From the NCBI GenBank assembly GCA_027482185.1, contig JAIXWF010000007.1:1-64000 (forward strand): DNA of 64,000 nt, read 5' to 3'. The notes beneath the pieces are model-generated. The model did not search any database. It saw nothing but the letters and a program-made list of their open reading frames with translations, and was not told the DNA's origin. Source of the DNA: Opitutaceae bacterium. GTDB taxonomy: Bacteria > Verrucomicrobiota > Verrucomicrobiia > Opitutales > Opitutaceae. The translations under genes were made by a program, and so were the position numbers. Shown here piece after piece: positions 15,238-55,798 of this stretch (positions are counted from its first letter, which is position 1; each line of letters starts with the position of its first letter).

Positions 15238-15340
15238 GGTTGAAAGTTGAAAGCTGAAGGTTGAAAGATTCTTCAGCGGCGCCCGGTTTCGCGGGCCGAG
15301 TCCCCATCTTTCAACGTTCAACCTTCACCCTTCAACTTCG
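15238..15340. repeat. inverted short-period repeat element (paired arms)
   Basis: The left arm 15238-15270 is a degenerate tandem of about 7-9 nt units of the type GTTGAAAG. The right arm 15304-15339 carries the complementary units (CTTTCAAC type). The arms pair imperfectly around a ~33-nt GC-rich spacer. The element starts 8 bp after the oxidoreductase stop and ends 18 bp before the aldolase start. It is non-coding. Its role is unknown; RNA folding or attenuation within the cluster is possible. Confidence 0.8.
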
Positions 15341-15357
15341 CCCCCGACTTCGCTCCC

Positions 15358-16125
15358 ATGAAACTTCCCCCCGATTTCCGCAAACGCGTGCTCGCGCGCG
15401 AATGGCTCGCCGGCACGTTCCTCAATCTCGGTTCGCCGATGACGGTCGAGATCGCGGGCCTCGCGGGTTTCGACTGGGTGCTGATCGACCATGAGCACGG
15501 GCCGGGCGGCGAGGACACGCTGCTGCACCAGCTGCACGCGGCCTCGGCGACGCCGACGTTTCCCGTGGTGCGCATCGCGCAAAACGAAACGCCGCGCTTC
15601 AAACGCGTGCTCGATATGGGCGCGCTCGGCGTGATGGTGCCGTACGTGAGCACGGCGGCGGAGGCGGCGGCGGCGGTGCAGGCGATGCGCTATCCGCCGC
15701 ACGGCATCCGCGGCGTGGCGAAGTTCAACCGCGGCGCCGGCTTCGGCGGCGACTTCGAGGAGTACTATCTGCACGCGCACGAGCGGCTCGTGACCGTGAT
15801 CCAGATCGAGACCGTCGAGGCCATCAAAAACATCGACGCCATCGCGGCCGTCGACGGCGCAGACGTGCTCTTCGTCGGGCCGACCGATTTGTCCTACAAC
15901 ATGGGCATCCGCGACCAATTGGAGAGCGCGACCTTCAAGGATGCGCTGCGCGCGGTGAGCGACGCGGCGAAGCGCCACGGCAAGGCCGCCGGCATCTTGG
16001 TGCACAACAACGGCCTCGTGCCGATGGTGCGCGAGCTCGGCTATACGTTCACGGCGCTGGGCAGCGACGGCGGTGCGGTCCGCGCCGGCCTGCTCGGATT
16101 CGTCGCCGCCCTCAAGGGCAAGTAA
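15358..16125 (+). CDS. HpcH/HpaI class II aldolase
   Basis: 255 residues, the normal length. Family motifs: WVLIDHEHGP (catalytic His region), VVRIAQNETPRFKRVLDMGALGVMVPYV (substrate Arg and P-Y loop), and VIQIETVEAIKNIDAI with VLFVGPTDLSYNMG, which supplies the metal-binding Glu and Asp. Relatives include GarL (5-keto-4-deoxy-D-glucarate to pyruvate and tartronate semialdehyde) and HpaI. Being directly upstream of a GlucD-type dehydratase favours the GarL reaction. The 38-bp gap to the dehydratase indicates one operon. Confidence 0.92.
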   Translation: MKLPPDFRKRVLAREWLAGTFLNLGSPMTVEIAGLAGFDWVLIDHEHGPGGEDTLLHQLHAASATPTFPVVRIAQNETPRFKRVLDMGALGVMVPYVSTAAEAAAAVQAMRYPPHGIRGVAKFNRGAGFGGDFEEYYLHAHERLVTVIQIETVEAIKNIDAIAAVDGADVLFVGPTDLSYNMGIRDQLESATFKDALRAVSDAAKRHGKAAGILVHNNGLVPMVRELGYTFTALGSDGGAVRAGLLGFVAALKGK

Positions 16126-16163
16126 TCCCGCCGCGGCCCGGCCCGCGGTCCCGTTTTTCCGCC

Positions 16164-17450
16164 ATGCGAATCACCGAAATGCACATCACGCCGATCGCGC
16201 TCGGCGATCCGCCGCTGCTCAACGCCGCCGGCCTGCACGCCCCGTATTGCCTGCGGACGGTGGTCGAGCTCGTGACGGACAACGGCTTGACCGGCCTCGC
16301 CGAGGTGCCCGGCAGCGTCGCGGTCGACGCGGCCCTCGCGGCGGTGCGCGAGACCGTGATCGGAAGCGATCCGCTCAACTGGCAGGGCCTCCGGGCCAAG
16401 GTCGCGGCGCGTTGCTCGCCCGAGACTTCGGCGGCGCGCGGCGACAAACCCTGGGACGGCCGCACGCGCGTGCAGGTGTTCAGCGCGCTCGACGTGGCCT
16501 GCCTCGATTTGCAGGGCAAGGCCTACGGCCAGCCCGTGGCCAATTTGCTCGGCGGCATCGTGCGCGAGCGCGTGCCGTACTCGGCGTACCTGTTCTACAA
16601 ATACGAAGGCGCCGGCGGCGAACTCGGCTTCGGCACGGATCCGGCTGCGACCGGCTGGGCGGCGGCGCGGCAAAAGGCGGCGCTGGATCCCGACGGCGTC
16701 GTCGCGCAGGCCGTGGCGATGGTCGAGGAGTTCGGTTTCGAATCAATCAAGCTGAAGGGCGGTTGCTTCCCGCCGGCCGAGGAAGTGGCGGCGATGAAGG
16801 CGTTGCACCGGCATTTCGGGCCGAAGGTGCCGCTGCGGCTCGATCCCAACGCGCTCTGGACCGTGGAAACTTCGATCGCGGCCGGCCGCGAACTCGAGGG
16901 CGTGCTCGAATACCTCGAGGATCCGTGCCGCACGCAGGAGGGCATGGCCAAAGTGCGGCAGGCGCTGAAGACGCCCCTCGCGACGAACATGTGCACGACG
17001 TCGTTCGACGACCTGCCGGGCAGCGTGCGGACGGGGTCCGAGGACATCATTTTGACCGACCACCATTATTGGGGCGGGCTGCATGCCTCGATGGAATTGG
17101 CCGCGCATTGCCGCGTCTTCGGCCGCGGCGTGTCGATGCATTCCAACAACCACGCGGGCATTTCGCTTGCGGCAATGACGCACCTCGGGGCGGCGATGCC
17201 GAACCTGAGCTACGCCCTCGACACGCACTATCCGTGGCAGTGGGAAGAGATCATTGTCGGCGGCCGGATGAAGATCGAAGGCGGCTGCGTGACGTTGCCG
17301 CAAGGGCCGGGCCTCGGCGTCGAGCTCGATCGCGCGGCGTTGGCGCGCGCGCATGCGGCGTACGTCCGCTGCGGGCTCAAGGAGCGCAACGACGAGATCG
17401 AGATGCAGAAGAAGGTGCCGGGTTGGAAATTCGCGGCGACGCGCTGGTGA
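16164..17450 (+). CDS. gudD: enolase-superfamily dehydratase, glucarate dehydratase (GlucD) type
   Basis: 428 residues. GlucD-subgroup signatures: SIKLKGG (K-x-K acid/base pair), LDPNALWT and YLEDPC (metal ligands Asp/Glu), ATNMCTT, HHYWGG, MHSNNHAGISLA (His) and ALDTHYPW (Asp), ending in a GlucD-like tail with GPGLGVELD and PGWKF. The reaction would be dehydration of an aldarate (D-glucarate or close analogue) to 5-keto-4-deoxyglucarate. The order reductase-aldolase-dehydratase matches the glucarate/galactarate route. The exact substrate is not provable from sequence. Confidence 0.88.
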   Translation: MRITEMHITPIALGDPPLLNAAGLHAPYCLRTVVELVTDNGLTGLAEVPGSVAVDAALAAVRETVIGSDPLNWQGLRAKVAARCSPETSAARGDKPWDGRTRVQVFSALDVACLDLQGKAYGQPVANLLGGIVRERVPYSAYLFYKYEGAGGELGFGTDPAATGWAAARQKAALDPDGVVAQAVAMVEEFGFESIKLKGGCFPPAEEVAAMKALHRHFGPKVPLRLDPNALWTVETSIAAGRELEGVLEYLEDPCRTQEGMAKVRQALKTPLATNMCTTSFDDLPGSVRTGSEDIILTDHHYWGGLHASMELAAHCRVFGRGVSMHSNNHAGISLAAMTHLGAAMPNLSYALDTHYPWQWEEIIVGGRMKIEGGCVTLPQGPGLGVELDRAALARAHAAYVRCGLKERNDEIEMQKKVPGWKFAATRW

Positions 17451-17493
17451 AATTGCGTTGAGCGGACGCGCCGGCCCGGGGCAACGTGGGGGC

Positions 17494-18267
17494 ATGACAC
17501 CCCTTGTTTCCCGTTTGGCCGGCAAACACGCCCTCGTGACCGGCGCCGGTTCCGGCATCGGCCAGGCGATCGCGGTCCGGCTCGCGGCCGAAGGCGCGCA
17601 CGTGACCGTGCTCGAACGCCAGGCCGAGGCCGGGGCGGCGACGGCGGAGACGATCCGCGCCGCGGGCGGGCAGGCGGCGGTGGTCGCGGCGGACGTCGGC
17701 GACACAGCGGCGATGCGCGCGGCGTTCGCGGGGTTGGCGCGGCTCGATATTCTGGTGAACAACGCGGGCATCGCGCACGTGGGCAACGTGCTCAACACCG
17801 CGCCCGAGGACCTCGACCGCATCTACGGCGTGAACGTGAAGGGCGTCTACCATGGGCTGCATTTCGGCGTGCCGCGGCTGCTCGAAGCGGGCGGCGGGGC
17901 GATCGTCAATCTGGCGTCGGTGGTTTCGAAGATCGCGCTGCCGGACCGTTTTGCCTACGGCATGAGCAAGGGCGCGGTGCTGACGATGACGCTGTCGGTG
18001 GCGCGCGACTTCATCGACCGCGGCATCCGTTGCAATTGCGTGTGCCCGGGCCGCGTGCACACGCCGTTCGTGGACGGATTCCTCGCGAAGAATTACCCGG
18101 GCAAGGAAAAGGAGATGTTCGCGAAACTGGCGGCGGCGCAGCCGATCGGCCGCATGGGCGAGCCGCCGGAGATCGCGGCGCTGGTGGCTTTTCTGTGTTC
18201 GCCGGAAGCCGCGTTCATCACGGGTTCGGCTTACGACATCGACGGCGGCGTGACGCTGCTGCGGTGA
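17494..18267 (+). CDS. short-chain dehydrogenase/reductase (SDR)
   Basis: 257 residues from the ATG at 17494. Classical SDR motifs: GAGSGIG cofactor loop near residue 18, DVGD, LVNNAGIA, a catalytic Ser in NLASVVS, YGMSK (Tyr-x3-Lys), CVCPGRVHTPF and a final DIDGG. The closest family I can recall by pattern (RGIRCNCVCPG, PIGRMGEPPEIA) is that of 2-keto-3-deoxy-L-fuconate dehydrogenase and BDH2-like enzymes. It is 43 bp after the dehydratase, so it is co-transcribed. It could oxidise a sugar acid feeding the aldarate route or a keto-deoxy acid. The substrate is unassigned. Confidence 0.88.
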   Translation: MTPLVSRLAGKHALVTGAGSGIGQAIAVRLAAEGAHVTVLERQAEAGAATAETIRAAGGQAAVVAADVGDTAAMRAAFAGLARLDILVNNAGIAHVGNVLNTAPEDLDRIYGVNVKGVYHGLHFGVPRLLEAGGGAIVNLASVVSKIALPDRFAYGMSKGAVLTMTLSVARDFIDRGIRCNCVCPGRVHTPFVDGFLAKNYPGKEKEMFAKLAAAQPIGRMGEPPEIAALVAFLCSPEAAFITGSAYDIDGGVTLLR

Positions 18268-18290
18268 GGTGAGAGTTGAGAGATCGAGTC
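18265..18290. repeat. short single-arm repeat after the SDR stop
   Basis: GGTGAGGTGAGAGTTGAGAG begins at the SDR stop codon and has three to four GTGAG/GTTGAGAG units. It resembles the 45009 element. No second arm is seen before the convergent gene stop at 18325. Confidence 0.55.
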
Positions 18291-18324: not shown

Positions 18325-19506
18325 TCAAAAGTAGCTGAGCCAGGCGTCGCGGCGGCGGCGTTTGAGATCGGCGAACCAGCGGCAGGCGGGATAGAGCAGC
18401 ACGACGACGGCGATCCAGACGAGGTAGGTCAGCGCGAGCGTGATGCCGGCGCCTTCGGGCGGCGTGCCGCGCACGATCGAGAACGTGACTTCGCCGTGGC
18501 GTATCCGGTGCACGATCCAGGCGAGGCCGTGGATCAGCGGAATGTGCAGGATATAGTAGAAGAACGGCACGCGCCCAAAGACGAGGGCGGGGCGGAGCCA
18601 GCGGGGCGTTTCCCGTTCCAGCAAGGCGAGGAGCAGGAGGCCGGGTCCGAGGGTCATGAGCAGGTAGCAAAGCGAGGGCGGGTACTTCGTGACGTTGAAG
18701 AACGAGATCGCCGTGCGCCAAAGCCCGGAGTGGCGCGTCCAAGGCTCGAGGTTGCCGTAGAGGTTGGAGAAACGCAGGACGAAGAATCCGACGATGAGGG
18801 CGGTGCCGGTGCGCAGGAGCCAACGGCGACGGACCGCGGCATCGAGGGTATAAAGGAGGCCGGCGCAATAGCCGGCGGACATCACGCCGAGCCAAGGCAC
18901 GAGGGGATACATGACGAAGAACGAGAAGCTGCCGGCCGTGAGATTCCCTTGGACATGCAGCACCTGCCAGAGCCACGAGAGCGCGCCGAATGCCTCGGGT
19001 TTGACGCCGTCGAACGCGTTGTGGCCGAGGATCAGCAGCAGACTGAAGACGGCGACGGTGCGGAGGGAACAATGGATCAATCCGGCCAACGCGATCATCG
19101 ACCAGCCGAGGGACCAGAGCGTGGCGAAGAAGTAGACCCGCGGGTTGAAGTGGAAATCCCAGCCGAACCAGAGCAGCAGCGTCAGTTCGAGACCGATGAG
19201 CCAAAGCCCGCGGGTGACGAGGAACCAAGACAGGTCGCGCTTGGATTTGCCGCGCATGACGGCGAGGAACACGCCCGTGCCGGCGAGAAACGAGAAGATG
19301 GGCGCGCAGTAGTGCGTGATCCAGCGCGTGAAGAAAAACGCGGGCGTCGACTTGAGCGCGTCCGTGGGATCGATGCCTTGCAGCGTCAGGTCGTGGAAAA
19401 AGTCCCGCGTATGGTCGAGGGCCATGACGACCATGATGATCCCGCGGAGCAGATCGATCGACTCGAGGCGTGGCGGAGAGGCCGGGGGCGAAGGCGGCGG
19501 GGACAT
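18325..19506 (-). CDS. DUF1624/HGSNAT-type polytopic membrane protein
   Basis: 393 residues from the ATG at 19506. A Pro/Ser-rich N-tail is followed by RLESIDLLRGIIMVVMALDHTRDFF, the hallmark of the DUF1624 (heparan-alpha-glucosaminide N-acetyltransferase catalytic-like) family, which also resembles acyltransferase 3 starts. About ten hydrophobic segments follow, plus the conserved His in MALDHTRDFF and HIPLIH. Members transfer acyl groups across the membrane, but most bacterial ones are uncharacterised. It is convergent with the SDR gene. An upstream extension of the frame beyond 19506 is Ser/Pro/Arg-rich and judged non-coding. Confidence 0.88.
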   Translation of the reverse strand: MSPPPSPPASPPRLESIDLLRGIIMVVMALDHTRDFFHDLTLQGIDPTDALKSTPAFFFTRWITHYCAPIFSFLAGTGVFLAVMRGKSKRDLSWFLVTRGLWLIGLELTLLLWFGWDFHFNPRVYFFATLWSLGWSMIALAGLIHCSLRTVAVFSLLLILGHNAFDGVKPEAFGALSWLWQVLHVQGNLTAGSFSFFVMYPLVPWLGVMSAGYCAGLLYTLDAAVRRRWLLRTGTALIVGFFVLRFSNLYGNLEPWTRHSGLWRTAISFFNVTKYPPSLCYLLMTLGPGLLLLALLERETPRWLRPALVFGRVPFFYYILHIPLIHGLAWIVHRIRHGEVTFSIVRGTPPEGAGITLALTYLVWIAVVVLLYPACRWFADLKRRRRDAWLSYF

Positions 19507-20110
19507 CGGCGGCGTTGGCGATGGGGTACAGCGCGGGCGGAAGCCAGATTCAATTTCGGAGATGATGGGGCGCTGTCGGGTGTAGCCGGCAGCGAGTGAA
19601 TGGGGGAAATGGAAAAGAGAACGACCGGAGGACCGAATCGTCGCGACGTTGTCCGTGGACTGAGGCAACGCCGCCGGCGCGGGTTTCGCCGGCGGGAGGA
19701 GGGCAAGTGCGCGGGTGGCGCGGATGGGACATGGAGTAGGCCTGCCGAACGGAAGGTGGGATCGGAGAACGGCAGCATGCGGCCGGATTGATCGAGGTTT
19801 GAACTTTCGAAGATAGGTTCTGGAATTGAAAACGCGGGGTGAAAGCCGGGGGCGGCAGCGATTCCGGCGACGTGCATTTTCGGCATGGGAACGGCATGAG
19901 GGGCGCCACAAGTAGTTTGTTTGTCCGGGGCGTTTTCCCCGGGACGCTTTCCGGGCGCAGTCGTGCTTGATGCCAAGTTCCGCCGGCGCCGAGACGTTGA
20001 GTGCGGTGCTCGATTGGGCAGGCCGGCGGCGATCCGGAGCAAATGCCAGGGGATCCGCGAACCGTGCGCAGGCGCGCCTGCTCCTAGGAGGACGGCCGCT
20101 GGAGACGCGA
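19507..20110. other. 604-bp region without a convincing gene
   Basis: Frames on both strands are short and Arg/Ser/Pro-rich with no recognisable motif or conserved start. It probably holds the promoter of the DUF1624 gene. No hairpin or repeat of note was seen. Confidence 0.6.
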
Positions 20111-22438
20111 TCAGGGCACCTCGTAAATTTCCACGAGCGCGACGCCGGTAGTGTCGCCGTTGCCGACGATCTGCGCAGTGTAAGTGCCGGGGAGAAGAGT
20201 CGCGACGATTGCGGCGTCGCCCGAGTTCTCGGCGAGGGCAAACGCGCCGGTTTGGCGAAAGGCGTCCGACAGTGCGGAGGAACCGCCCCAGTTGTCGTTT
20301 TCCGCCCGCAGACTGGCGTTCTCGAACAGCCGCAGTCGCGGATCGGAGAGTGCTCCGTTGACGCCGAAGGCGGCAAGAGTCGGCCCGATGGCGCGCACCA
20401 GGATCCGTTTCGGCACATCGCCGACGATCGCGAAGCCCGCGACCAACAGGTTGCCTCCGGTTCCAACTGCACTGCGGGCCGAAACGTTGGCGAACCGCGT
20501 CGCGGGCAAGCCGGGGTCGATGTCGTAGGCTTCGAGAAGCACTATCCCTTCCGTCGCCGCGGCCCCCGTCACTGTCGCCGTATAGCTGCCGCTTTGGAGG
20601 GAAGTGCTCAGGGCGGCGTCCTTGGAGTCGTGCGGCAGCGCGAAGGCGCCCGCCTCGCGGGCTGCCGCTTCGAGCGCGGGCAGGCCGCCCCAGTCCTCGT
20701 TTTCGGCCAGTTGGCGTCCGGTTGCGGTGTATAACTTGAGCGAAGGATCAGCGAGCGCACCCGAGACTCCAAAGCTGGCCAGCGTTGGTCCGACTGCGCG
20801 AAGCAGCAGCCGTTTGGGGCCGTTGCCCGTGGCGGAGAATCCGACAATCAACGTCCGGTCTCCGGCTCCGGCGGCGCTGCGAACGGAGAGATTGGCAAGG
20901 CGCGAGGGGTTCAGGAAACTGAAGTTCAGAATCTGTCGGGCGGATCCAAGCAGATTGCTGGCGGTGATGGTCACAGAGTAGGTTCCTTTCTGGGCGGGAA
21001 CCCCGGAAATCACCCCGGTTGTCCGATCGAACGCCAAGCCGGGGACCGAGCCCGCTACGGCAAGGGCTGAGGCATAATTCTCGACCAAGATCTGATGGCG
21101 AAACGAGGTCCCGACGACCGCCGAGACGGCAGAGCTGCTGGTGATGGAAGGAGGGCTGGTCGGAAGGGCAAAAACCGCTCCGCGATCGGCGGTGCCGCCC
21201 GCCCGAGTTACACCGAACAAACGGCCATCGCCACCTTGGATGACGCCGCAGACCGAACTGTTGCCGTCTGCGTCCAGACTGCCGAACTGATGGTTGACAA
21301 GAAATCCGCCGCCCTCGGGCCGGATCGAGAAAACGTTGCCGCGGATCGTGCGCAAACCTCCCGAGTGGGTGGTTCCGTACAATCTACCATCCCGGGCCAG
21401 AATCAGTTCGCAGATTGGCCCGCTGCCCTCCTCGGCGGGATTGAAAGTGTGATGGAGGGTGAAGCCGCTGCCGTCCGGGCGGAGCGAGAAAACCGCTCCG
21501 CCGGTGCCTGGGTCGGATCTGGAGGCGGTTCCGAACAGTCTCCCGTCTGGGAGTTGGATCAGGCTCTTTTGCGGCAGAGATGTGGTGGAGTCGCCCAGAA
21601 AAGCATGCAGGGTGGCAAAGCCCGTACCATCCGGGTTGAGCGTGTAGATCGATCCCATGCCGGGATAGAATGTAACACCGTTGATAACGACCGTTCCCGA
21701 CTGCATCGTGGTTCCATAGAGCCTGCCGTCCCGGCCGAAAATCAGACCGCTTTTGGGGTACCAGCCTTCGTTTTCCATGAACCGGTGGAGAATGCCGTAG
21801 CCCGATCCGTCGGGACCAATCCGATAGACCGTTCCGAATCTGCCCGCGACCAAGGGCGCTCCGCCGCCGGCGCGCGTCGTGCCATAGAGTAGGCCATCGC
21901 TGCCCTGCACCGGCGCAGCCGTCGGCTCGGCGCCGTCGAAAGGCGCATCGCCGAAGTGCCGAAGCACGGAGTAGCCGGAGCCGTCCGCGTTGAGCACGTA
22001 GAGCACTCCCCGACCGAAATTCCCTCCGGCGTTTGCGGTTCCGCACAGTCGTCCGTCCCGCAGAAGGATCACGCCGGCTTCGGGCGAAGCGCCGTCGAAC
22101 GGCCGATCGCCGAAGTGGTGGAGCGTGGCGTAGCCTGTGCCGTCGGTTTCGAGGGAGAAGACGGTGCCTTTGCCGTAACGGCCTCCTTCCAGAGTTGTGC
22201 CGTAGAGCCTATTGCCGGGGCCGAAGATGAGTCGCGCTTGCGGGGATGATCCGATTTCGGACGAAGTTCCGAAACTGAAGAGGGTCGTTCGACCTTCGGG
22301 TTGCGCGAACGCCAGTCCCGCTGCCGCGGCAACGGCCGCAAACCCACCGCACATTTTCGAATCATTGGGCGTGAATCGGCAAGGTTCCGGCGCGAAGACG
22401 AAGGGCCAAGCGGCGCGGAAGAATCGTGGAATTTGCAT
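20111..22438 (-). CDS. exported GloVer-repeat protein with Ig-like domain and two C-terminal modules
   Basis: 775 residues from the ATG at 22438 (a GTG at 22468 is possible). After a long N-terminal signal ending near GLAFAQ come about seven repeats of the GloVer type, with units containing LYGTTxxGG and VFxLxxDGxGY (about 50-400). A putative-Ig (cadherin-like) domain follows (about 410-500; GVISGVPAQKGTYSVTITASN), then two copies of a ~125-residue module with ANLSVRSAAGAG, LLRAVGPTLASFGV, NEDWGG and ENDNWGG, YTATV/YTAQI and a Y-[ED]-[IV] end. The same module pair ends two other proteins in this window. Role unknown; likely cell surface or secreted. Confidence 0.88.
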   Translation of the reverse strand: MQIPRFFRAAWPFVFAPEPCRFTPNDSKMCGGFAAVAAAAGLAFAQPEGRTTLFSFGTSSEIGSSPQARLIFGPGNRLYGTTLEGGRYGKGTVFSLETDGTGYATLHHFGDRPFDGASPEAGVILLRDGRLCGTANAGGNFGRGVLYVLNADGSGYSVLRHFGDAPFDGAEPTAAPVQGSDGLLYGTTRAGGGAPLVAGRFGTVYRIGPDGSGYGILHRFMENEGWYPKSGLIFGRDGRLYGTTMQSGTVVINGVTFYPGMGSIYTLNPDGTGFATLHAFLGDSTTSLPQKSLIQLPDGRLFGTASRSDPGTGGAVFSLRPDGSGFTLHHTFNPAEEGSGPICELILARDGRLYGTTHSGGLRTIRGNVFSIRPEGGGFLVNHQFGSLDADGNSSVCGVIQGGDGRLFGVTRAGGTADRGAVFALPTSPPSITSSSAVSAVVGTSFRHQILVENYASALAVAGSVPGLAFDRTTGVISGVPAQKGTYSVTITASNLLGSARQILNFSFLNPSRLANLSVRSAAGAGDRTLIVGFSATGNGPKRLLLRAVGPTLASFGVSGALADPSLKLYTATGRQLAENEDWGGLPALEAAAREAGAFALPHDSKDAALSTSLQSGSYTATVTGAAATEGIVLLEAYDIDPGLPATRFANVSARSAVGTGGNLLVAGFAIVGDVPKRILVRAIGPTLAAFGVNGALSDPRLRLFENASLRAENDNWGGSSALSDAFRQTGAFALAENSGDAAIVATLLPGTYTAQIVGNGDTTGVALVEIYEVP

Positions 22439-22470
22439 AGGGCATGAAGCGTCGGCGGCAACCGGCACGG

Positions 22471-25400
22471 CTAACGATTGTCGCCGACTTCGTAGATCTC
22501 AGCGAGAGCAACGCCGGCTGATCCGTTGACTCCGCTGATCTGCGCCGTGTAGGTCCCCGGGGGCAGCGTCACGACGAGGGCGGAGTCCTTGGCGGGAAGA
22601 GTCAAAGGGAATGCTCCCACGCGGCTGGCGGCCTGTGCGGCAAGCGCGGTCGTGAACCAATTGTCGTTCTCGTAGATCAAAGTTGCGCCGCTGTAGAGAC
22701 GCAGAATCGGATCCTCAAGGGCGCCCGTCACACCGAATCGGGCAAGACTTGGCCCGATGGCCCGGATAAGCACGGTTTTGCGCATTTCTCCGGCAATCAC
22801 GATACCGGCAACAAGGAGATTCTCTCCGGCGCCGACCCAACCGCGCGTTGAGATATTGGCCAGCCGCGGCGAACCGCCACCGCCGGCGTCGTAGATTTCC
22901 AGCAATACGACGCCTTCGGCCTGGGGGGCGGAGTTCCCCGCTTTCACCTGGGCGCTGTAGGCTCCGGGAGAGAGAGTTTGCACCAGCGCGGCGTCCCGGC
23001 TTCCGGCCGGAAACGCAAAGGCCCCGACCCGGGTGGCAGCCTGGGAACTGCCGGCAGCGGCGCCCCAATCGTCATTCTCAGCGATGCGCGTCGACTGGCG
23101 GAACAGTTCCAAGCGGCTGTCGGGGTGGGCACCGCGCACGCCCAGCGCCGCCAAGGCGGGTCCGGCCGCACGGATCAGCACGTTTTGGGCGGATTCGCCG
23201 ACAATGACGAAGCCGGCAATCAGGGTGTCGTCGCCGCCGCGGGCAAAGCCGCGGGTCGCTATGTTGGCAAAGCGATTCGACATTGGCCCCGCGATGCGCC
23301 GGCCCGAAAAAGCCAGCATGTTCCCGAGCGGGCCCAAGGCGGTTCCCGCGAATGTGCCGGTCGTCGGGCTGAACCGGATCTTTGGTGCGGCCTCCGCCGG
23401 CACGATGAAACTGATACGGAATGCACCGTCGGAACCGAGGGATCCCGTTTGATGTTCGAGTGCGTTGGTTGAACCCTGGGCCCAGATGTACATCAACAGG
23501 ACCTGTCCGCTGGCATTGACGATCGCTTCGACCGACCCGGATCTCGGCGGGTCCAGCGGGGCCTTCCAGTAGCCGACGTAGTCCGCGAATTCCCCTTGCG
23601 CGCTGGAGAGAGGGAAGAGCGATTCGGCGGTGTTTTCCTCCGCATACTGGATGGAATCCGAGCGCACGAAGCCTGCGCCTCGTATGCGCTGCGGGGGATT
23701 CACATTTCGGCGCGGCACGCTGTAGTCGAAGGTCCCGTCGGGCCGGACGGCGACGTCGGACACGGAGTGTCTGTTGTCGGTGGCGGAGTTGTTCGCAATC
23801 AGAGCCGCCAGCTTCCCGTCGGTCCCGATGTAGATCGCACCGCTTCCGGAGCCGGCAGCCCGGAAGTAGACCCCCGGAAGGTGCGGCGGACGGATCGAAA
23901 CGGCGACAACCTCGCTGTTGGTGCTGCCCTGGCTGTTGGTGGCGACGATCGCATAGGTGCCCGCGTCGGACGAGCGGATGCCGGAGATGGTCCCGAGAGC
24001 GTTGGCCGTTTGGCTGCCGATCCGGCGCGAAACCGAGAACCTTCCGTCCGAATTCGGAAAGACCGGCACGGTCGAAATCGGGATCCCGTTCCACAGCCAG
24101 ACGACCTGGGCGGGTGAATTGCTGATGCCCTCAAAGACGAGGTCGACGGCATCGCCCGGGGTCGCTGAGATCTGACTGCGAGCAACCGGGGCAAGAATCG
24201 GTTTGGCGGGCACGGTTCCGGTGACGGCTACGGTGACGGTCTCCGTCCGAATCGAGCCCAACGGATTCGTGACGATCGCGTGGTAGATGCCGGCGTCGAG
24301 GGCAGTCGGAGACGGGATCGACAGGGTGGGCCCGCTTCCTCCCGGAACCGGCGTGCCGTTGCGCAGCCACAGGACCGAGGGCGCGGGATTTCCCGCGACC
24401 ACCACGGAAAGCGACGCCGGAGTTCCTGCGGCGAACGTGACCGACCGCGCCGCGGGCTGCTGCAGCACGAGAGGAGCGAACGACAGAGGTGGGCCGGACA
24501 CGGTCAGCACCGCTTCGGTGCCGGCGGTGACGGGGCCGCCGGCCGGGCCCGCGTCTACGCGGTAGCGGCCGGCGTCGGACGCGGAAACGTCGACGAGGAA
24601 TAGAGTCCGGGAATTGGCCCCGCTCACGGGGGTGCCGTCTTTGTACCACTGGTACATCCCATCGACGGCGCCCTCCGCATCGGCGGCGAGAGTGACGCAG
24701 GCGCCGGGCTGGACGGTCCGGCTATGGGGCTGCACCAGAAACACCGGAGCAGCGGTCGCCGGCCCGACAAGAGTTACCTCCCCCTCGTCGCTTGCCAAGG
24801 TTTGGCCAGAGGCCGTTATGGCGACGAGGGAGTAGCGTCCGGCCAAGGCCGGAGTATAGGGACCGACGGAGAGAACGAAGTTCGTGGCGCCGGGAATGTC
24901 GATACCGTTGCGGCGCCACTGATAGCGGATCGAAGCCATGTTCTGCTCGGACAGCCGGGCAGCCAGCGTGTTGATTTGGCCCAGCCGTAATCCGAGGTTG
25001 CGCGGGTGTTCCTTGAAATAGGGCGCTCCCGTGGAGTTCGCGGCAGTGACACGCATCGTGCGCGACACGATCCGGCCGGCATGATTGCTGACTTCCAGAA
25101 AGTACTCGCCTGCCGGGCCTCCGGGAAGCCCGCCCAGGCTCAGGCCGCCGTCGGTCAGATGAGTGGTGCGGCTTTCCGACTGGATTTCGATCCCGTTGCG
25201 GAACCACCGATAGGTGTAGGGGGGGCTGCCGGTAACAAACACGCTCAGGGCGGTTGCATCGGGACCGCTCAGGTTGCCGCTCTGGGCGACAAAAACCGGC
25301 GCTTGAGCCGGTCGCACAACGACCGGGATCGGGCGGCTTTGGAACGTGCCGTCCGGCGTTGTCGCCTCGACAACGTAGGTTCCGGTGTCCGCGGCGGACA

Positions 25401-25659
25401 AGGCCGTGAACCGGAGCGCCGCAACCGTTCCGAACGGCCCGACTTCTTCGTCCATTTGGGCCACTTCATTGCCGTCGCGGCGCCACCGAAACCGGATGGG
25501 CCCGCGGCCTTCGAACAAGGCTTCCAGCCGGAAATCGCTCCCGACATCCGATGCACCCAATTGGGTCGTGCTCCGGAATCCGGAGACCTGTGCCTTCGCG
25601 CCGACGAAGGTCGCAAAAAACAGAACGAGGTTGGCTGCGAGGGAAGCCAAGTGAAGCAT
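22471..25659 (-). CDS. large exported multi-Ig-domain protein with two C-terminal modules
   Basis: 1062 residues from the ATG at 25659; a TTG at 25683 would add eight residues. The signal peptide is MLHLASLAANLVLFFATFVGAKAQ-like. About six immunoglobulin-type beta domains follow (about 30-590), each with the Y-x-W and D-x-G-x-Y signatures (YRWFRNG, YQWRRNG, YQWYKDG, VLWLRNG, DAGRY/DSGTY variants). A beta-rich region (about 600-790) precedes two ~125-residue modules with LIRAAGPALAALGV and LIRAIGPSLARFGV, ENDDWG/ENDNW and YSAQV/YTAQI. It lies 32 bp upstream of the GloVer protein on the same strand and may share its transcript. Surface adhesion is a guess. Confidence 0.88.
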   Translation of the reverse strand: MLHLASLAANLVLFFATFVGAKAQVSGFRSTTQLGASDVGSDFRLEALFEGRGPIRFRWRRDGNEVAQMDEEVGPFGTVAALRFTALSAADTGTYVVEATTPDGTFQSRPIPVVVRPAQAPVFVAQSGNLSGPDATALSVFVTGSPPYTYRWFRNGIEIQSESRTTHLTDGGLSLGGLPGGPAGEYFLEVSNHAGRIVSRTMRVTAANSTGAPYFKEHPRNLGLRLGQINTLAARLSEQNMASIRYQWRRNGIDIPGATNFVLSVGPYTPALAGRYSLVAITASGQTLASDEGEVTLVGPATAAPVFLVQPHSRTVQPGACVTLAADAEGAVDGMYQWYKDGTPVSGANSRTLFLVDVSASDAGRYRVDAGPAGGPVTAGTEAVLTVSGPPLSFAPLVLQQPAARSVTFAAGTPASLSVVVAGNPAPSVLWLRNGTPVPGGSGPTLSIPSPTALDAGIYHAIVTNPLGSIRTETVTVAVTGTVPAKPILAPVARSQISATPGDAVDLVFEGISNSPAQVVWLWNGIPISTVPVFPNSDGRFSVSRRIGSQTANALGTISGIRSSDAGTYAIVATNSQGSTNSEVVAVSIRPPHLPGVYFRAAGSGSGAIYIGTDGKLAALIANNSATDNRHSVSDVAVRPDGTFDYSVPRRNVNPPQRIRGAGFVRSDSIQYAEENTAESLFPLSSAQGEFADYVGYWKAPLDPPRSGSVEAIVNASGQVLLMYIWAQGSTNALEHQTGSLGSDGAFRISFIVPAEAAPKIRFSPTTGTFAGTALGPLGNMLAFSGRRIAGPMSNRFANIATRGFARGGDDTLIAGFVIVGESAQNVLIRAAGPALAALGVRGAHPDSRLELFRQSTRIAENDDWGAAAGSSQAATRVGAFAFPAGSRDAALVQTLSPGAYSAQVKAGNSAPQAEGVVLLEIYDAGGGGSPRLANISTRGWVGAGENLLVAGIVIAGEMRKTVLIRAIGPSLARFGVTGALEDPILRLYSGATLIYENDNWFTTALAAQAASRVGAFPLTLPAKDSALVVTLPPGTYTAQISGVNGSAGVALAEIYEVGDNR

Positions 25660-25997
25660 CGATTTCAAGCGGGTGCCATTCAACCGCCTCGGGTTCGTGC
25701 TCCAAGCACTTTGCCAGTCATTTTCGCCCTCGGCAGGTGTGCCGTTCGTGGGACCGGGGCGGCAAGGTGCTTCGATGTGTGCCGGGAAACGACGGATCGG
25801 GTCCGTGAAGGATGGGCTTGGAATTGGCGCGAAGGGATTCGGCGTTGGCCCGGTTGCCGGAACGTCGGCTCAAGGATCAAATTGCCGGGGGAGGAGCAGC
25901 GTGGCGCCGTTTGCTTGTTTCCGATCCGGGGGCGGTTTCGACGGACCAACTAACCTGACTGCGAACGGCCGAGAAAGCCTTCATCCTATCCCCACAC
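25660..25997. other. 338-bp intergenic region between divergent genes
   Basis: It lies between the Ig-domain protein (minus) and the pirin remnant (plus). No reading frame with family motifs, no tRNA and no strong hairpin were seen. It probably holds the promoters of both neighbours. Confidence 0.55.
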
Positions 25998-26835: not shown

Positions 26836-26963
26836 GTCGAAAGCCGAGGGTTGGGAGATCGATCCGTCGAAGTCCGGAAACTTTTGCCGCAGCCAGCAAC
26901 CAGAGAAACCGAACGGATTTGGTCCCGACCCTCAACCGAGCTGTCTCAACTGCACGAGTTCGG

Positions 26964-35058: not shown

Positions 35059-35072
35059 GGGAGTGGAGTTCT

Positions 35073-38658: not shown

Positions 38659-38721
38659 GGGGGGCCGCGGAGTGCGCCAGCCCCGGCCGGCGGACTCAAG
38701 CGAAATGCCGGCGCGGCCGTG

Positions 38722-41890: not shown

Positions 41891-41905
41891 GCCGCGAGCG
41901 GCGGC

Positions 41906-41940: not shown

Positions 41941-41974
41941 GATCGGCGGTTGGCTCCCGAAGAAAGCGGCGGCG

Positions 41975-43857: not shown

Positions 43858-43961
43858 GACCGAGGCACCGTGGGGACGTCGGGTGCGCGGGGCGATGGGA
43901 TTTCGCCCGGCTTGCCGCGGGGACGGAAATGGGCGACACCCAAGCCAACCCCGATCCCCCG

Positions 43962-45026: not shown

Positions 45027-45045
45027 GAGTTGAGGGTTGAGAGCC
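45009..45045. repeat. single-arm short-period repeat overlapping the NHL stop codon
   Basis: Degenerate units of GTTGAGNG/GTTGAG (gttggagttgag cgttgag agttgag ggttgag) run through the last five codons and the stop of the NHL gene and on for about 20 bp. The unit is like the GTTGAAAG element but with G in place of A. Confidence 0.7.
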
Positions 45046-45102: not shown

Positions 45103-45642
45103 TTACTGCTCGGCTTCGCGGGCTAGGAGCCAGAGCAAGTCGGAGAGGCGGTTCACGAATTCGCGCAGTTCCGGGCGGACGCTGCGGCCGTGGGCGGGCA
45201 GGGCGCTGAGCCGGCGTTCGCAGCGGCGGGCGACGACGCGCGCGGTGTCGAAGGCGGCGGCGCGGGCGTTGGCGCCGGGCGTGGCCCAGCCGTCGAAGCG
45301 GAGACCGCGGGCTTCGAGCGCGGCGAGGGCGGCGTCGATCCGGGCAAGATCGGCGGGAACAATTTTCTCGAATTTCGACGCGGCGTAGCGCGCGACGTCG
45401 GCTTCGGCGCAGGCCAGCTCGCCCATGAGCGCGACGAGATTTTTCTGCACGGCGAGCAGCAGCGCGGCGATTTCGGCGTCGCGGGCGACGGCCGGCTGCA
45501 GGAGCGGTTTCACGGCGCCAAGGGCGACGTTGAGCTCGTCGAAGGCGCCGACGGCCTCGATCTGCGGGTGGTCCTTGGGCACGCGTTGCCCGTAGAGCAG
45601 GCCCGTGGTGCCGTCGTCGCCCTGGCGCGTCGCGATGCTCAT
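45103..45642 (-). CDS. cob(I)yrinic acid a,c-diamide adenosyltransferase, PduO type
   Basis: 179 residues from the ATG at 45642. The PduO-family N-terminus TRQGDDGTTGLLYGQRVPKDH (residues 5-25) includes the ATP-binding T-x-x-G-D-x-G-T-T segment. VGAFDELNVALG, RFDGWATPG, and CERRLSALPAHGRSVRPELREFVNRLSDLLWLLAR near the end are the conserved helical core. It adenosylates cob(I)alamin. No cobalamin biosynthesis gene or riboswitch is adjacent, so it probably serves salvage or a B12 enzyme elsewhere. Confidence 0.92.
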   Translation of the reverse strand: MSIATRQGDDGTTGLLYGQRVPKDHPQIEAVGAFDELNVALGAVKPLLQPAVARDAEIAALLLAVQKNLVALMGELACAEADVARYAASKFEKIVPADLARIDAALAALEARGLRFDGWATPGANARAAAFDTARVVARRCERRLSALPAHGRSVRPELREFVNRLSDLLWLLAREAEQ

Positions 45643-45660
45643 AAGCGCGCGCAAGCGCGC

Positions 45661-45780
45661 GCAGGTGAAAGGTGAAAGTTCAAAGTTGAAAGATCGGGAA
45701 GGGGCGGCCCGACGGGAGGCGGTTGTGACGCGTGGATCGAACTCCGGTCTTTCAACCTGCGTCTTTCAACTTTCAACCGC
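45661..45780. repeat. inverted short-period repeat element (paired arms)
   Basis: Left arm 45661-45697 has GGTGAAAGGTGAAAGTTCAAAG-type units. Right arm 45744-45778 has the complementary CTTTCAAC units. The spacer is about 46 nt. Reading the right arm in reverse complement gives GGTTGAAAGTTGAAAGACGC..., similar to the arms at 15238 and 41906. It lies between the adenosyltransferase start and the oxidoreductase stop, that is, just after the Gfo/Idh stop on the minus strand. Confidence 0.8.
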
Positions 45781-45799
45781 GCGCCGCGCCGCGGCGCGC

Positions 45800-46882: not shown

Positions 46883-46894
46883 GGTAAGGAGGGA

Positions 46895-46991
46895 AGTTGG
46901 GGAAACGGAAATTGAAGCAACGGAAATTGGAAAAACGGGAAGCGAAACGACGGAGATTGGAAAAACGGAATTGCGGAAACGGAATTCGCGG
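46895..46991. repeat. degenerate tandem of GGAAACGGAAATT-type units upstream of the Gfo/Idh/MocA gene
   Basis: Units such as GGAAACGG, AAATTGG, AAAAACGG and GGAGATTGG recur every 8-10 nt for about 95 bp between the start of the oxidoreductase gene and the stop of def. There is no clear inverted partner. It resembles the other short-period elements in style. Confidence 0.65.
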
Positions 46992-47032: not shown

Positions 47033-47605
47033 TCAGGATTTCGCGGCCGCGGCCTTCGTGGCCTTGGCGAGGGCCTTGACGGCGTCGTCGATTTCCGCGC
47101 GCACGTCCTTTTCCATCCGGGCGATGAACAGGACGCCGTTGAGGTGGTCGACCTCGTGCTGGATGCAGCGCGAGAAGAGCCCGTCGCACTTCAGGACATG
47201 CGGGGTGCCGCGTTCGTCCTGGAAAGTGACGACGATGGCGTCGGGCCGGACGACGTCGCCGCGGATCTTGGGAAACGAGAGGCAGCCCTCCTCGTAGACG
47301 GTTTCCTCCGTGCCTTTGACGACCTTGATCTCGGGATTGGCGAGGACCATCGGCATGAACAGATCGAGGGGCGGCTTGGCGCCGTCGAGTTCCCAGGTAA
47401 ATTCGGCGTCGGCGTCGCGGAGATCGACGACGCAGAGCTGGAGCGCCTCGCCGATTTGCTGGGCGGCGAGGCCGATGCCGGCGGCGTCGTGCATCGTCGC
47501 GATCATTTCCTGGGCGAGCCGGGCGAGCGCGGCGTCGAACACGGCCACTTTCTCGCCCTTTTTGCGCAGAACCGGCTCGTTGTAGTGAACAATTCGCAGC
47601 GACAT
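47033..47605 (-). CDS. def: peptide deformylase
   Basis: 190 residues from the ATG at 47605. All three metal-binding motifs are present: GIGLAAQQIG, EEGCLSFP and HEVDHLNG. The Cys and two His are the metal ligands, and the Glu in HEVDH is catalytic. A Lys/Ala-rich C-tail follows. It removes N-formyl groups from nascent proteins. The gene is upstream of the Gfo/Idh gene on the minus strand and divergent from the unknown membrane operon. Confidence 0.96.
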   Translation of the reverse strand: MSLRIVHYNEPVLRKKGEKVAVFDAALARLAQEMIATMHDAAGIGLAAQQIGEALQLCVVDLRDADAEFTWELDGAKPPLDLFMPMVLANPEIKVVKGTEETVYEEGCLSFPKIRGDVVRPDAIVVTFQDERGTPHVLKCDGLFSRCIQHEVDHLNGVLFIARMEKDVRAEIDDAVKALAKATKAAAAKS

Positions 47606-52848: not shown

Positions 52849-52880
52849 GAATTCGCCAACGCGAGCGGAGGACGGACGCG

Positions 52881-54659
52881 TTACTTAAGGAGCATGTCCT
52901 TCACCGTCTTGCCGGCCGGGATCATCGGCAGCACGTGTTCGGTGTAGGGGACGATGATATCGAGGACGTACGGGCCGTCGTGGTCGAGCATCTCCTGGAT
53001 GGCGGCGCGGAGCTCGCTCTTCAGGTGGACGCGGCGGCCCTTCACGCCGAAGCCCTCGGCGATCTTGACGAAGTCCGGGTAGAGGCCGGCGAGGTTGTCG
53101 GGGCTGCCGACGTTGGTCTCGTCGCCGAGGATGGTGTTGCCGCGGACGCTGCCGTAGAAGCGGTCTTCCCACTGCACGACCATGCCGAGGTGCTGGTTGT
53201 TCAGGATCATGGCCTTCGCGGCGATCTTCTCGATCTTGCAGGTGGCCAGCTCCTGGATGTTCATCACGAAGGAACCGTCGCCGTCGATGTCGATGACCTG
53301 CTTGTCGGGGCAGGCGACCTTGGCACCCATGGCGGCGGGGTAGCCGTAGCCCATCGCGCCGAGGCCGAGGGAGCTGATGTAGCGGCGGGGTTCGTTGAAG
53401 CGGTAGAACTGCGCGGCCCACATCTGGTGCTGGCCGACGCCGGTGGTGATGATGGCGTCGCCCTTGGTGAGCTCGTACAGGGTTTTGACGGCTTCCTGCG
53501 GGACAATGTGTTTGCTCTCCTCGTAGCTGAACGGGTGCTCTTTTTTCCAGGTCGCGATCTGCGCGTGCCACGCGGCGGTGTCGGGGGCGGAGAACTTGGC
53601 GGCCTTGGCGAGTTCGTTCAGGCGCGTGAGGGCGAACTTCACGTCGCTCACGATGGGGAGGAGGACGCGCTTGTTCTTGTTGTGCTCGGAGGCGTCGATG
53701 TCGATGTGGACGATCTTGGCCTGGGTGGCGAAGTGCTTCGTGTCGCCGGTGATGCGGTCGTCGAAACGCGCGCCGATCGCGAGGAGGAGATCGCTTTGGT
53801 CGACGGCCCAGTTGCCGTAGGCCGAACCGTGCATGCCGAACCACTGCATCGAGAGCGGATGCGTTTCCGGAAACGCGCCGACGCCCATGAGCGTGGTGGC
53901 GACGGGGATGTTGGTCTTTTCGGCGAAGGCCTTCAGCTCGGCGTGGGCCGCGGCGGAAATGATGCCGCCGCCGGCGTAGATCACGGGGCGCTTGGCCTCG
54001 CCGATGAGGGCGAGCACTTGCTTGAGCTGGTCGTCTTCGGCGTGGAAGACGGCGTTGGCGTAGGTGCTGCGGAATTCGACCGTGGCCGGATAGACGGGCG
54101 TGAATTTCTTCTGCTGCACGTCCTTCGGGATATCGATGACGACGGGGCCGGGACGGCCGCTGCGCGCGAGGTGGAAGGCTTCCTTGAAGACGCGGGGCAG
54201 ATCGGCGGCGTCGAGCACGAGGTAGGAGTGCTTCACGATCGGCAGCGTCATGCCGTAGAAGTCCGTTTCCTGGAACGCCATCTTGCCGATGTATTTCGAG
54301 AAAACCTGGCCGGTGATCGCGACCAGCGGCGTGGAATCCATGAACGCATCGGCGATCGCGGAAACGAGATTGGTGGCGCCGGGGCCGGACGTGGCCATGC
54401 ACACGCCGACCTTGCCGGTGGCGCGGGCGTAACCTTCGGCGGCGAAGGAACCGCCCTGCTCATGCCGCGGCAAAATCACGCGGATCTTGTCGGTGCGCGC
54501 GAGCGACTGGTGGAGCTCCTGCGAAGCGCCGCCGGGGTAGGCGAAGACGACGTCGACACCCTCGCGGATCAGGCACTCGACGACGCAGTCGGAGCCCTTC
54601 ATTTCGCGGCCGATCTCGGCCTGTGGAAACGCGGCGGGTGAGGTGGTGTCTTTTTTCAT
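52881..54659 (-). CDS. ilvB: acetolactate synthase large subunit
   Basis: 592 residues from the ATG at 54659. ThDP enzyme landmarks: [10 protein letters not shown], the catalytic Glu in [26 protein letters not shown] and [14 protein letters not shown] through [18 protein letters not shown] (GDG...NN motif). It catalyses the first step of branched-chain amino acid synthesis. The small subunit ilvN is not adjacent; the downstream gene is TMTC-like. A long frame extending upstream is non-coding. Confidence 0.95.
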
Positions 54660-54783
54660 GGCAATGGCTTCGTGCAAAAGCCGTCTAGGAGAAACCGTCC
54701 GGTCGCCACGACGCAAGCCCCGGTTCCGGATCCGGGGCGGATTCCGCGAGGCTCCGTTCGTCGGGGGGCGGACCGGCGACCGC

Positions 54784-54811
54784 GGGCGCCGACGAGCGGC
54801 GCCCCTACGTA
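54784..54811. repeat. REP-like palindrome near ilvB
   Basis: GGGCGCCG (54784-54791) and CGGCGCCC (54797-54804) pair around ACGAG, followed by TACGTA. The sequence belongs to a GC-rich hairpin type seen widely in bacterial intergenic DNA, where it yields spurious Val-Gly-Ala-Pro-Leu frames. It lies between ilvB and ymdB, which are divergent, and does not encode protein. Confidence 0.6.
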
Positions 54812-54884
54812 GACCGGACCGGGGGGGCGGGCGGCGCCGGAAAATTCGGCTGGCGCCGGGCGCGGCCGGGGGCAGCGTCGCCGC

Positions 54885-55673
54885 ATGCTGAAGCTGCTGT
54901 TCATCGGCGACATTGTCGGCCGGCCCGGGCGGGAAATCGTGGCGGACCGGTTGCGCCGGATCCGCACGGAGCATGCGGTCGATTTCGTGATTGCGAACGG
55001 CGAAAACGCCGCCGCCGGTGCGGGCATCACGGGGTCGATCGCCAAGTCGATTCTCGAGAGCGGCGTCGACGCGATCACGTTGGGCGACCACGTCTGGGAC
55101 CAACGCGGTTGGGAAAACGAGATCACCCAGATCGAAAAGGTGTGCCGTCCCGCCAATTTGCCGAAATCCAATCCCGGCTGGGATCACCTGATCATCGAGG
55201 CGCGGGGTTTCCGGCTGGCGGTGTTCACCGTGCTGGGCCGCACCTTCATGAACAACGTGAAGGCGGACTGCCCGTTTCTGACCGCCGACCGCATGATCGA
55301 GCAACTGCGCCCGCAGGCCGACGCGATCGTCGTCGAGGTGCACGCCGAGGCGACGTCGGAGAAGATCGCGCTGGGATGGCACCTCGACGGCCGCGTGACG
55401 GCCGTGCTCGGCACGCACACCCATGTGCCGACGGCGGATGCGACCGTGTTGCCGAAGGGCACGGCGTTCATGTGCGACGTCGGGATGACCGGACCCTACG
55501 AGAGCGTGCTGGGCCGCGAAGTGCGGCCGATCGTGGACCGTTTCCTCGACGGCATGCCGCGGCGCTGCGAAGTGGCGACGGGCGACGTGCGGCTTTCCGG
55601 CGCGCTGATCGAGATCGCCGCCTCGAGCGCGAACGCGCGGAAGATCGAGCTGCTGACGGTGAGGATGGGGTAG
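54885..55673 (+). CDS. ymdB: YmdB-family metallophosphoesterase
   Basis: 262 residues. It begins [12 protein letters not shown] (metal-binding Asp), then NGENAAAG, then [11 protein letters not shown], then [12 protein letters not shown] and [15 protein letters not shown], the complete YmdB (TIGR00282) pattern. In most phosphoesterases the third motif is GNH; here residue 68 is Asp (GDH), so a metal-ligand Asn is replaced by a chemically similar Asp. The family hydrolyses 2',3'-cyclic nucleotides/phosphodiesters. It is convergent with accA. Confidence 0.92.
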
Positions 55674-55698
55674 CGGCGCGGCGGGGCCGCGCCGCGGT

Positions 55699-55798
55699 GC
55701 GGAGTTTGGGGTGCGGAGTTCGGAGTTGGGCGAGTCGACTACCTCGCTGCTACCGGGTGCCGGAACTTCAAACTCTGAACCCCAAACTCCAAACTCGA
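55699..55798. repeat. inverted short-period repeat element (paired arms)
   Basis: The left arm at about 55699-55730 is GGAGTTTGGGGTGCGGAG-type units. The right arm 55763-55796 is the complementary AAACTCCAAACTC-type units. The spacer is about 32 nt. It begins 26 bp after the ymdB stop and ends 28 bp before the accA stop. The unit (GGAGTTTG) differs from the GTTGAAAG elements but the architecture is the same. Confidence 0.78.

Follow-up and report, generated by a model that had tools for sequence, protein, structure and literature searches.

Inverted pairs of degenerate seven-base repeats at gene ends of an Opitutaceae bacterium: putative hairpin elements of mRNA 3' ends

Introduction

In most genomes of an earlier study, tandem repeats of seven-base units (heptads) outnumbered the other longer repeats, and an effect of the polymerase has been proposed (PMC4679880, citing Mrazek 2007). 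The closest published case to the elements studied here comes from Xanthomonas and Nostoc, which carry GGGAATC and GGGGA(C/T)T heptameric repeats (PMC4692102). The Xanthomonas heptads are intergenic; on the sense strand they lie at most 50 bp from stop codons, or on the antisense strand they precede open reading frames (ORFs). Two convergent sites were found in 70 cases in Xcc and 75 in Xac. The heptads are under-represented between divergent ORFs, and transcripts start or stop more often at the heptads that form G-quadruplexes. That study dealt with one unit type per genome, picked for its G-quadruplex potential, and few pairs were found in Nostoc (PMC4692102). TAACTGA heptamers form intergenic tandem arrays, spread patchily over phyla, in marine Beggiatoaceae, cyanobacteria and Bacteroidetes (PMC4679880), and heptanucleotide arrays are also described for Calothrix and among long simple sequence repeats (Mrazek 2007, via PMC4692102 and PMC4679880). 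Here, we describe inverted pairs of degenerate heptad arrays near gene ends in an Opitutaceae bacterium (Verrucomicrobiota; assembly GCA_027482185.1). We start from four loci (15238-15340, 34278-34432, 45661-45780 and 55699-55798, each referred to by its first position) in positions 1 to 64,000 of contig JAIXWF010000007.1, a stretch of 64,000 nt that we call the window.

Like the Xanthomonas heptads, the arrays in this genome consist of exact 7-nt tandem units (save at locus 34278), include convergent pairs, and carry purines on the sense strand after stops and on the antisense strand before starts, more weakly so at co-directional stops. Unlike in Xanthomonas, many units occur in one genome, the unit changes between relatives at one site, and a G-tract of three or more is not found in each unit: the commonest units, AGAGTTG, AAAGTTG and AAACCGG, contain no GGG. 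With many units that mostly lack runs of three Gs, and with unit change at a single site, quadruplexes are therefore unlikely to be the common cause. The TAACTGA heptamers differ in having a single unit in direct orientation, mostly just before start codons and almost never inverted (PMC4679880), and for the heptanucleotide arrays of Calothrix no paired design is mentioned in the passages of PMC4692102 and PMC4679880 examined. Searches of an open-licence library, which leaves out most subscription papers, brought up no description of inverted heptads with mixed units in Verrucomicrobia; the motif strings themselves led to a single, unrelated paper on rice. An earlier note on the window, made by a model from the letters alone, knew of no standard name for the design; we found none for the mixed-unit class, but convergent heptad pairs of one unit by stop codons are described in Xanthomonas (PMC4692102). 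We favour, at somewhat less than an even chance, the reading that these are gene-end hairpin elements of degenerate seven-base repeats that act at mRNA 3' ends and whose letters turn over fast.

Inverted arms lie at gene ends in four loci

Re-alignment of the arms upheld the coordinates and the inverted architecture given in the earlier note, as well as its statement that each element lies within about 70 bp of a stop codon (its spans lie at 7, 68, 19 and 25 nt, respectively). Positions below are on the plus strand of the window. At locus 15238, a purine-rich arm of GTTGAAA units (15239-15269) begins 8 nt past the stop of a 3-hydroxyisobutyrate-dehydrogenase-like gene (14226-15230); it pairs with 15306-15336 (31 nt, 84% pairing), which is part of a pyrimidine-rich partner arm (15306-15338) upstream of an HpcH/HpaI aldolase gene (15358-16125). 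At locus 34278, the left arm of a CGCAAAG-type inverted pair (34279-34306) sits 69 nt past the stop of gene 32656-34209, and its right arm lies at 34402-34429 (28 nt, 89%). The GTTGAAA-type pair of locus 45661 (41 nt, 78%) has one arm at 45657-45697, beside the start of a cobalamin adenosyltransferase gene (45103-45642, minus strand), and a partner at 45744-45784; read on the minus strand, this partner is the purine arm and comes after the Gfo/Idh stop at 45800. At locus 55699, a purine arm of GGAGTTTG/GTTCGGA units (55701-55727) lies 27 nt past the stop of a TIGR00282 phosphoesterase gene (54885-55673) and pairs with 55764-55790 (27 nt, 85%), within a pyrimidine partner arm (55764-55799) that faces the stop of accA (55826-56806, minus strand). 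The arms are spaced 36-95 nt apart.

The long imperfect RNA hairpins expected in the earlier note are backed by computed folding, which predicts that all four loci fold better than dinucleotide shuffles on both strands (z from -3.2 to -6.6). The z-scores of the two strands were -4.3/-6.4 at 15238, -5.8/-6.6 at 34278, -3.2/-3.7 at 45661 and -6.0/-5.1 at 55699, and at each locus 0 or 1 of 200 shuffles folded as low as the real sequence.

Period-seven arrays are concentrated between convergent genes

The gaps between genes that we sampled come from the window together with 400 kb of contig C3 (sample 1) and from 400 kb of contig C19 (sample 2), about 13% of the 6.43-Mb genome in all. Genes were predicted with a self-built codon model, which in an early run missed genes at 19434-26964 of the window, and gap counts are therefore approximate. 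Of 177 gaps from C3, 18.1% showed lag 7 (0.1% in shuffles) and 13% its harmonic, lag 14, with every other lag from 4 to 15 at or below 4%. Lag 7 occurred in 43 of 234 gaps in the window and C3 and in 46 of 170 in C19; the next best lag, harmonic 14 aside, reached 8/234 and 6/170, respectively. A sharp period of 7 thus takes the place of the 7-10 nt unit proposed in the earlier note, except at locus 34278, whose unit is nearer 9 than 7 by eye. Tandem Repeats Finder reported period-7 arrays at 15239, 15310, 45663, 45763, 55700 and 55764, and at 41909 and 45009, both missing from the earlier list; it reported no array at 34278. CGCAAAG tandems, the type found at 34278, were tried as an abundant class and are unsupported, as their 10 matches equal those of the reversed control (10).

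Strong arrays, defined by 16 of 21 matching positions, were counted in gaps of 40 to 800 nt (up to 700 nt in one earlier listing). They were present in 20 of 45 convergent, 21 of 139 co-directional and 2 of 50 divergent gaps in sample 1, and in 22 of 32, 22 of 98 and 2 of 40, respectively, in sample 2. Both samples joined give 42/77 convergent, 43/237 co-directional and 4/90 divergent gaps, and shuffles at most 0.3 gaps per class. The few arrays in divergent gaps look in part like GC-rich false positives. A looser threshold yielded 165 arrays in 112 gaps of the window, C3 and C19, at a median distance of 16 nt from the nearest stop.

Purine polarity is strong between convergent genes and the two arms tend to share their unit

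The arrays have a strong polarity (counted for arrays of at least 18 nt). Between convergent genes, purines run along the sense strand of whichever stop is closer in 71 of 77 arrays; where such a gap holds one array of each kind, the order is purine-pyrimidine 17 times and pyrimidine-purine once. In co-directional gaps, the sense strand of the 33 arrays nearest a start is pyrimidine in 26 and purine in 6, and the 45 arrays nearest a stop show a weak bias (26 purine versus 18 pyrimidine). Genome-wide, the facing arms TTGAARG...CYTTCAA had 37 matches per strand (27 places) and the reversed order 1.

Partner arms were scored for 144 of the 165 arrays, the other 21 having too little adjoining sequence. 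The partner beat 95% of shuffles in 65 of these and 95% of the partners of other loci in 34. Within 32 pairs of a purine and then a pyrimidine array, unit similarity was 0.668, versus 0.564 when permuted (0 of 20,000 permutations). The units seen, in a convenient rotation, include GTTGAGA, GTTGAAA, ACCGGAG/AAACCGG, GTTCGGA, GTTTGGA, AAGCTGT, AGCTGAT, GAGTAGC and ATTGCGG. By consensus, the commonest are GTTGAGA (30/165 arrays) and GTTGAAA (23/165), and in GNTGARN heptads the free positions 2 and 7 are variable.

The earlier note saw a repeated design rather than a single family, a view that is largely upheld. The many units, and the arms that share them, speak for this; the dominance of GTTGAGA and GTTGAAA, the 62 exact genome matches of the 15-mer GTTGAAAGTTGAAAG and a true dispersed family of 155 bp (see below) speak against it. 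GTTGAAAG does recur, and the GTTGAAAGTTGAAAG matches mean that part of the repeat set is dispersed. Reversing the GTTGAAAGTTGAAAG pattern merely rotates its heptad, and this control did not serve as a null. GTTGAAAGTTGAAAG is present in 16 of 100 genomes of the family, this genome included.

Load is patchy in the genus and pairs persist at some orthologous sites

Among 27 genomes of the genus, 17 have GTTGARAGTTGARAG matches, and the count per genome (both strands) lies between 0 and 158. This genome has 152, G111 158, G105 124, G108 55, G103 44, G110 21, G113 and G122 11 each, and the rest 0 to 7. The comparison with relatives that the earlier note proposed had a split outcome, with the pair kept at 15238 and mostly absent at 34278, 45661 and 55699.

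At 15238, facing heptads were seen by eye in all seven relatives retrieved, G100 not being among them, with a single heptad on the left in G114. Arrays were flagged automatically in 6 of these 7, and a significant inverted repeat was found in 5 of the 6 relatives other than G105, G114 being the exception. The arms are of GTTGAAA type in four genomes including this one (G000, G105, G111 and G113) and of GTTGAGA type in G103, G108, G110 and G114, the unit differing on both arms. A protein tree of up to seven genes places this change on one branch, and the switch would be a single event if the weakly supported node (0.52) holds. The loops look unalike among the relatives; against G105, the arms are 94% and 76% identical and the loop 45%. 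Pairing between a genome's own arms scored 9-28 at this locus, versus a cross-genome mean of 16.3, and was best in 1 of 8 genomes, but this test of co-evolution is indecisive because GTTGAAA and GTTGAGA differ at one position.

The nearest relative, G105, has the same design at 55699 (arms 95% and 82% identical, loop 70%; parts delimited by eye), and in G114 the site has a heptad pair, likewise inverted, whose unit is GACGGAC. Two array-free relatives (G054 and G103) carry another inverted repeat there. At C3 368318, a GAGTAGC pair is present here and in G105, and the inverted pairs of five relatives differ from it in sequence: CGCAAAG-like in G111, CACAGAG-like in G113, by eye CACGGAG-like in G100 (where the repeat scored is another hairpin inside the loop) and AGAGGTC in G114 and G110. 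At C3 366992, four genomes have GTTGAGA pairs, G100 and G114 have a different hairpin, and G113 has 19 nt; own pairing (20-27) is no better than cross pairing (24.7).

A survey of 64 gaps in five 20-kb blocks, 45 of them with orthologs, counted arrays of at least 18 nt and below 85% GC. Where this genome has an array, one was found in G105 in 12 of 16 cases and in other relatives in 12 of 72; where it has none, in 1 of 22 and 1 of 59. In non-divergent gaps of at least 60 nt, the counts are 12/41 versus 1/26 (p=0.011). Significant long inverted repeats were scored in relatives other than G105, in non-divergent gaps of 60-400 nt (60-500 nt in the per-site comparison), and occurred in 21 of 39 at array sites versus 4 of 22 (p=0.008). 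By site, at least one relative had such a repeat at 8 of 10 sites with and 3 of 9 without an array of our own genome (mean fractions per site 0.585 versus 0.104; Mann-Whitney p=0.005). As the sites are few and non-random and the relatives share ancestry, this persistence is suggestive.

Three observations concern single sites. G105 lacks about 4.5 kb of the window (34211-38713), a part with locus 34278 at its left edge; only 14 nt separate the matches to its two flanks in G105. In the G105 ortholog (L109) of 41891-41974, an extra AAGCTGT-type array lies by the stop, upstream of the shared GTTGAAAG array, which is either a young gain or a loss in the genome of the window. The gaps L161, L162 and L171 (G114, G100) hold other inverted repeats, e.g., GGGCAGGTC...GACCTGCCC and TCATTCTGAGCGCAGCGAAGAATCC-like hairpins, possibly further dispersed families.

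The same unit pair occurs in records of many phyla

An exact pattern of two GTTGARAG units set opposite their complement across 20-50 nt matched at least 117 stretches when the GTDB genomes were scanned. The matches listed include records of Bacteroides, Parabacteroides, Prevotella, Opitutae, Spartobacteria, Akkermansiaceae, Acidobacteria, Gemmatimonadaceae, Anaerolineae, Planctomycetota, Fibrimonadales, Desulfurivibrionaceae and Clostridia, many of them metagenome bins in which binning errors are possible. For 82 matches in 80 of these stretches, a crude ORF rule gave 29 co-directional, 16 convergent and 3 divergent placements, 10 at contig edges and 24 within ORFs (some of them probably spurious), with a median of 14 nt to the flanking stop.

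A proposed hairpin acting at the mRNA 3' end

On the reading that we favour, transcripts from either side would fold the pair into a long hairpin, which would end or protect the mRNA 3' end, and one element would serve two converging genes. Replication slippage would create and homogenise the heptads, with the ability to pair retained, and the letters would thus turn over quickly. Renewal may also involve copying from arm to arm. At some of the few sites compared, the hairpin appears to have outlasted its sequence. We regard as doubtful the stronger form of this idea, a sequence-free gene-end hairpin in which what is inherited is an inverted heptad pair of fixed polarity, its letters replaced in both arms together by slippage within and copying between arms, and which recurs in many phyla as bidirectional punctuation.

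The elements resemble Rho-independent terminators in being a hairpin past the stop with a 5' purine and a 3' pyrimidine arm, and differ from them in the 36-95 nt between the arms and the long imperfect stem. Short GC palindromes are in excess near stops generally, at 32/143 gene ends in array gaps, 36/233 in other gaps and 16/132 in G115 (shuffles 2.9%, 5.1% and 3.5%; array versus other gaps p=0.10).

A number of results weigh against the favoured reading. By eye, no T-run follows the arms at the four loci. A GC stem with a U-tract was found at 12 of 143 gene ends in array gaps, where such terminators are weakly rarer than in other gaps (35/233, p=0.08); G115 has them at 15 of 132, and the shuffle rates are 4.5%, 3.4% and 1.9% for array gaps, other gaps and G115. 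In 79 of the 144 arrays the partner is not above 95% of shuffles and many arrays are single, and 11 of the 32 pairs have unlike units (similarity below 0.6). The single arrays in the window fold poorly: 41906-41933 no better than shuffles on either strand (z +1.3/+0.6), and 45017-45043 no better on the plus strand (z -1.0), with z -2.8 on the minus strand. Ten of the 27 genus genomes have no GTTGARAGTTGARAG match, and G115, the one congener in which arrays of any unit were sampled (400 kb), has arrays in 2 of 165 gaps, so the arrays are dispensable in the genus. At orthologous sites, arrays were found in 2 of 10 relatives at 55699, the other gaps measuring -4 to 174 nt and being array-free; in 0 of 9 congeners at 45661, where G116 has a weaker repeat; and no pair was seen by eye behind the same stop as at 34278 in any of 5 relatives. 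Among this genome's own gaps of 60-400 nt, a significant long inverted repeat was found in 8 of 19 with arrays and 3 of 11 without, and the persistence test comprises 19 sites and is carried by a few.

Selfish elements as an alternative

Miniature inverted-repeat transposable elements (MITEs), repetitive extragenic palindromes (REPs) and bacterial interspersed mosaic elements (BIMEs) are short intergenic inverted repeats. The heptad pairs might likewise be selfish, MITE-like hairpin DNA that inserts at stops and regenerates the TGA, so that insertion is harmless, and whose arms decay to heptads by slippage, with no need for a host function. We consider this possible but rather unlikely for the arrays as a whole. 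The patchy GTTGARAGTTGARAG load over the genus fits such elements, and so does a family in the window itself. The repeat at 26815-26969, an apparently decayed copy with a weak fold (z -1.3), belongs to a dispersed family of 155 bp, whose members have GTTGAGA arms, a conserved core and the inverted ends GATCATGCAGTTGAGAG...CTCTCAACTGCATGAGTTC. Besides this copy, 864 kb of our genome yielded 15 matches, some of them partial; a 400-kb stretch of G115 yielded none, and in G105 the family occurs in at least 30 places.

Of 44 near-full copies, drawn from our own samples and from 20 selected stretches of G105, 12 were dropped and the 32 with both ends recognisable were used to compare flanks. The words common to the left and right flank of a copy are longer than those common to swapped flanks (mean 6.31 versus 5.19; 0 of 20,000 permutations), with 8 or more shared bases in 9 of 32 copies (5.5% when swapped), e.g., ATCAGGCGG, GCTAAGCGG and CTGAGCCGG, and CTNAG lies in 19 left and 22 right flanks. 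From the sequence, this indicates target duplications of about 7-10 bp around CTNAG, often at a TGA stop codon; as the duplication often takes in the stop, it would account for the copies that sit at gene ends. A mobile-like origin is thus supported for the 155-bp subfamily, and more elements may share it.

Inverted ends, a conserved core and target-site duplication were found together in the 155-bp family alone, the duplication being evident in part of its copies. In contrast, no flanking duplication was seen by eye at the four loci, and these have no shared loop. The loops of GTTGAAAG pairs resemble one another little more than shuffles do (mean score 7.34 versus 7.14; 14 loops, 91 comparisons), though 2 comparisons, versus 0 in shuffles, scored at least 14, and several gaps of GTTGAAAG type, including 15231-15357 and 45643-45799, align with each other by BLAST over 75-156 nt at 67-74% identity. 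No helper transposase for the 155-bp family was found among the two families tested: this genome has no DDE_Tnp_1 (PF01609) and one Y1_Tnp (PF01797) match. IS4-type (PF01609) and IS200/RAYT (PF01797) transposases are unsupported as the spreading agent: besides these low counts, by eye neither tracks heptad load over the 27 genomes. At five transposase loci, two of them from G105, the ends of the 155-bp family were matched at best in 11 of 14 bases; one of the two G105 loci adjoins an AAGC-type array. The CTNAG in the duplications suggested the Tn10/IS10 target NGCTNAGCN; with no DDE_Tnp_1 match here, this is a lead only.

Mutation and translation stops as alternatives

It is improbable that mutation alone explains the pairs, with slippage building period-7 arrays in untranslated DNA, template switching copying the inverted arm, and purifying selection in genes and promoters confining them to gene ends. 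Such a process would fit units that vary by site and tend to agree within a site, single arms, and the extra AAGC-type array beside the 41906 array in G105, as well as the polymerase effect proposed for heptads in general (PMC4679880). It does not predict the strong polarity (71/77 and 17:1), facing arms that persist at 15238 while the loop is lost, or the same unit pair in records of many phyla.

That the heptads are translation stop cassettes is very improbable: those with TGA, TAA or TAG would close all three frames with three units because 7 is 1 modulo 3, and all three are closed on the purine strand in 74 of 165 arrays, versus 6 of 165 on the other strand (mean closed frames 1.68 versus 1.07 in shuffled arrays), but the signal is driven by two related units, GTTGAAA and GTTGAGA, while ACCGGAG, GTTCGGA and ATTGCGG contain no stop and the inverted pairing is left unexplained.

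Other repeats in the window

The window holds more repeats of this kind than the earlier note listed, all on the plus strand. Besides the 155-bp family member (26815-26969), these are three single purine arrays: one of GTTGAAA/GCTGAAA units at 41906-41933, between convergent genes; one of GTTGAGA units at 45017-45043, which overlaps the 3' end of gene 43929-45026; and one of GTTGAGA/GGTGAGA units at 18264-18284, which spans the stop of gene 17494-18267. In a covariance-model search of the window against Rfam, no heptad element matched a family at gathering score, the sole such match being a tRNA (58494-58566).

A period-15/30 repeat at 46892-46984, purine-rich on the plus strand and pyrimidine-rich on the coding strand, lies between a peptide-deformylase-like gene (47033-47548) and the Gfo/Idh start. 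As the gap that holds it is 177 nt long here and 17-64 nt in nine congeners, this repeat is probably an insertion. Contig C3 also has a larger repeat: two of its gaps, 52870-53337 and 55703-56439, are 77% identical over about 450 nt, inverted relative to each other.

Implications

About half of the convergent gaps sampled (42/77) in this genome contain heptad arrays, yet at least one congener is nearly without them. Should pairing be preserved as the letters turn over, RNA discovery by alignment, which needs conserved sequence, would overlook elements of this kind. The mixed units argue against quadruplexes as the general reason for heptads past stop codons. As the genus contains both heptad-rich and heptad-poor members, the function of these gene-end elements is directly testable.

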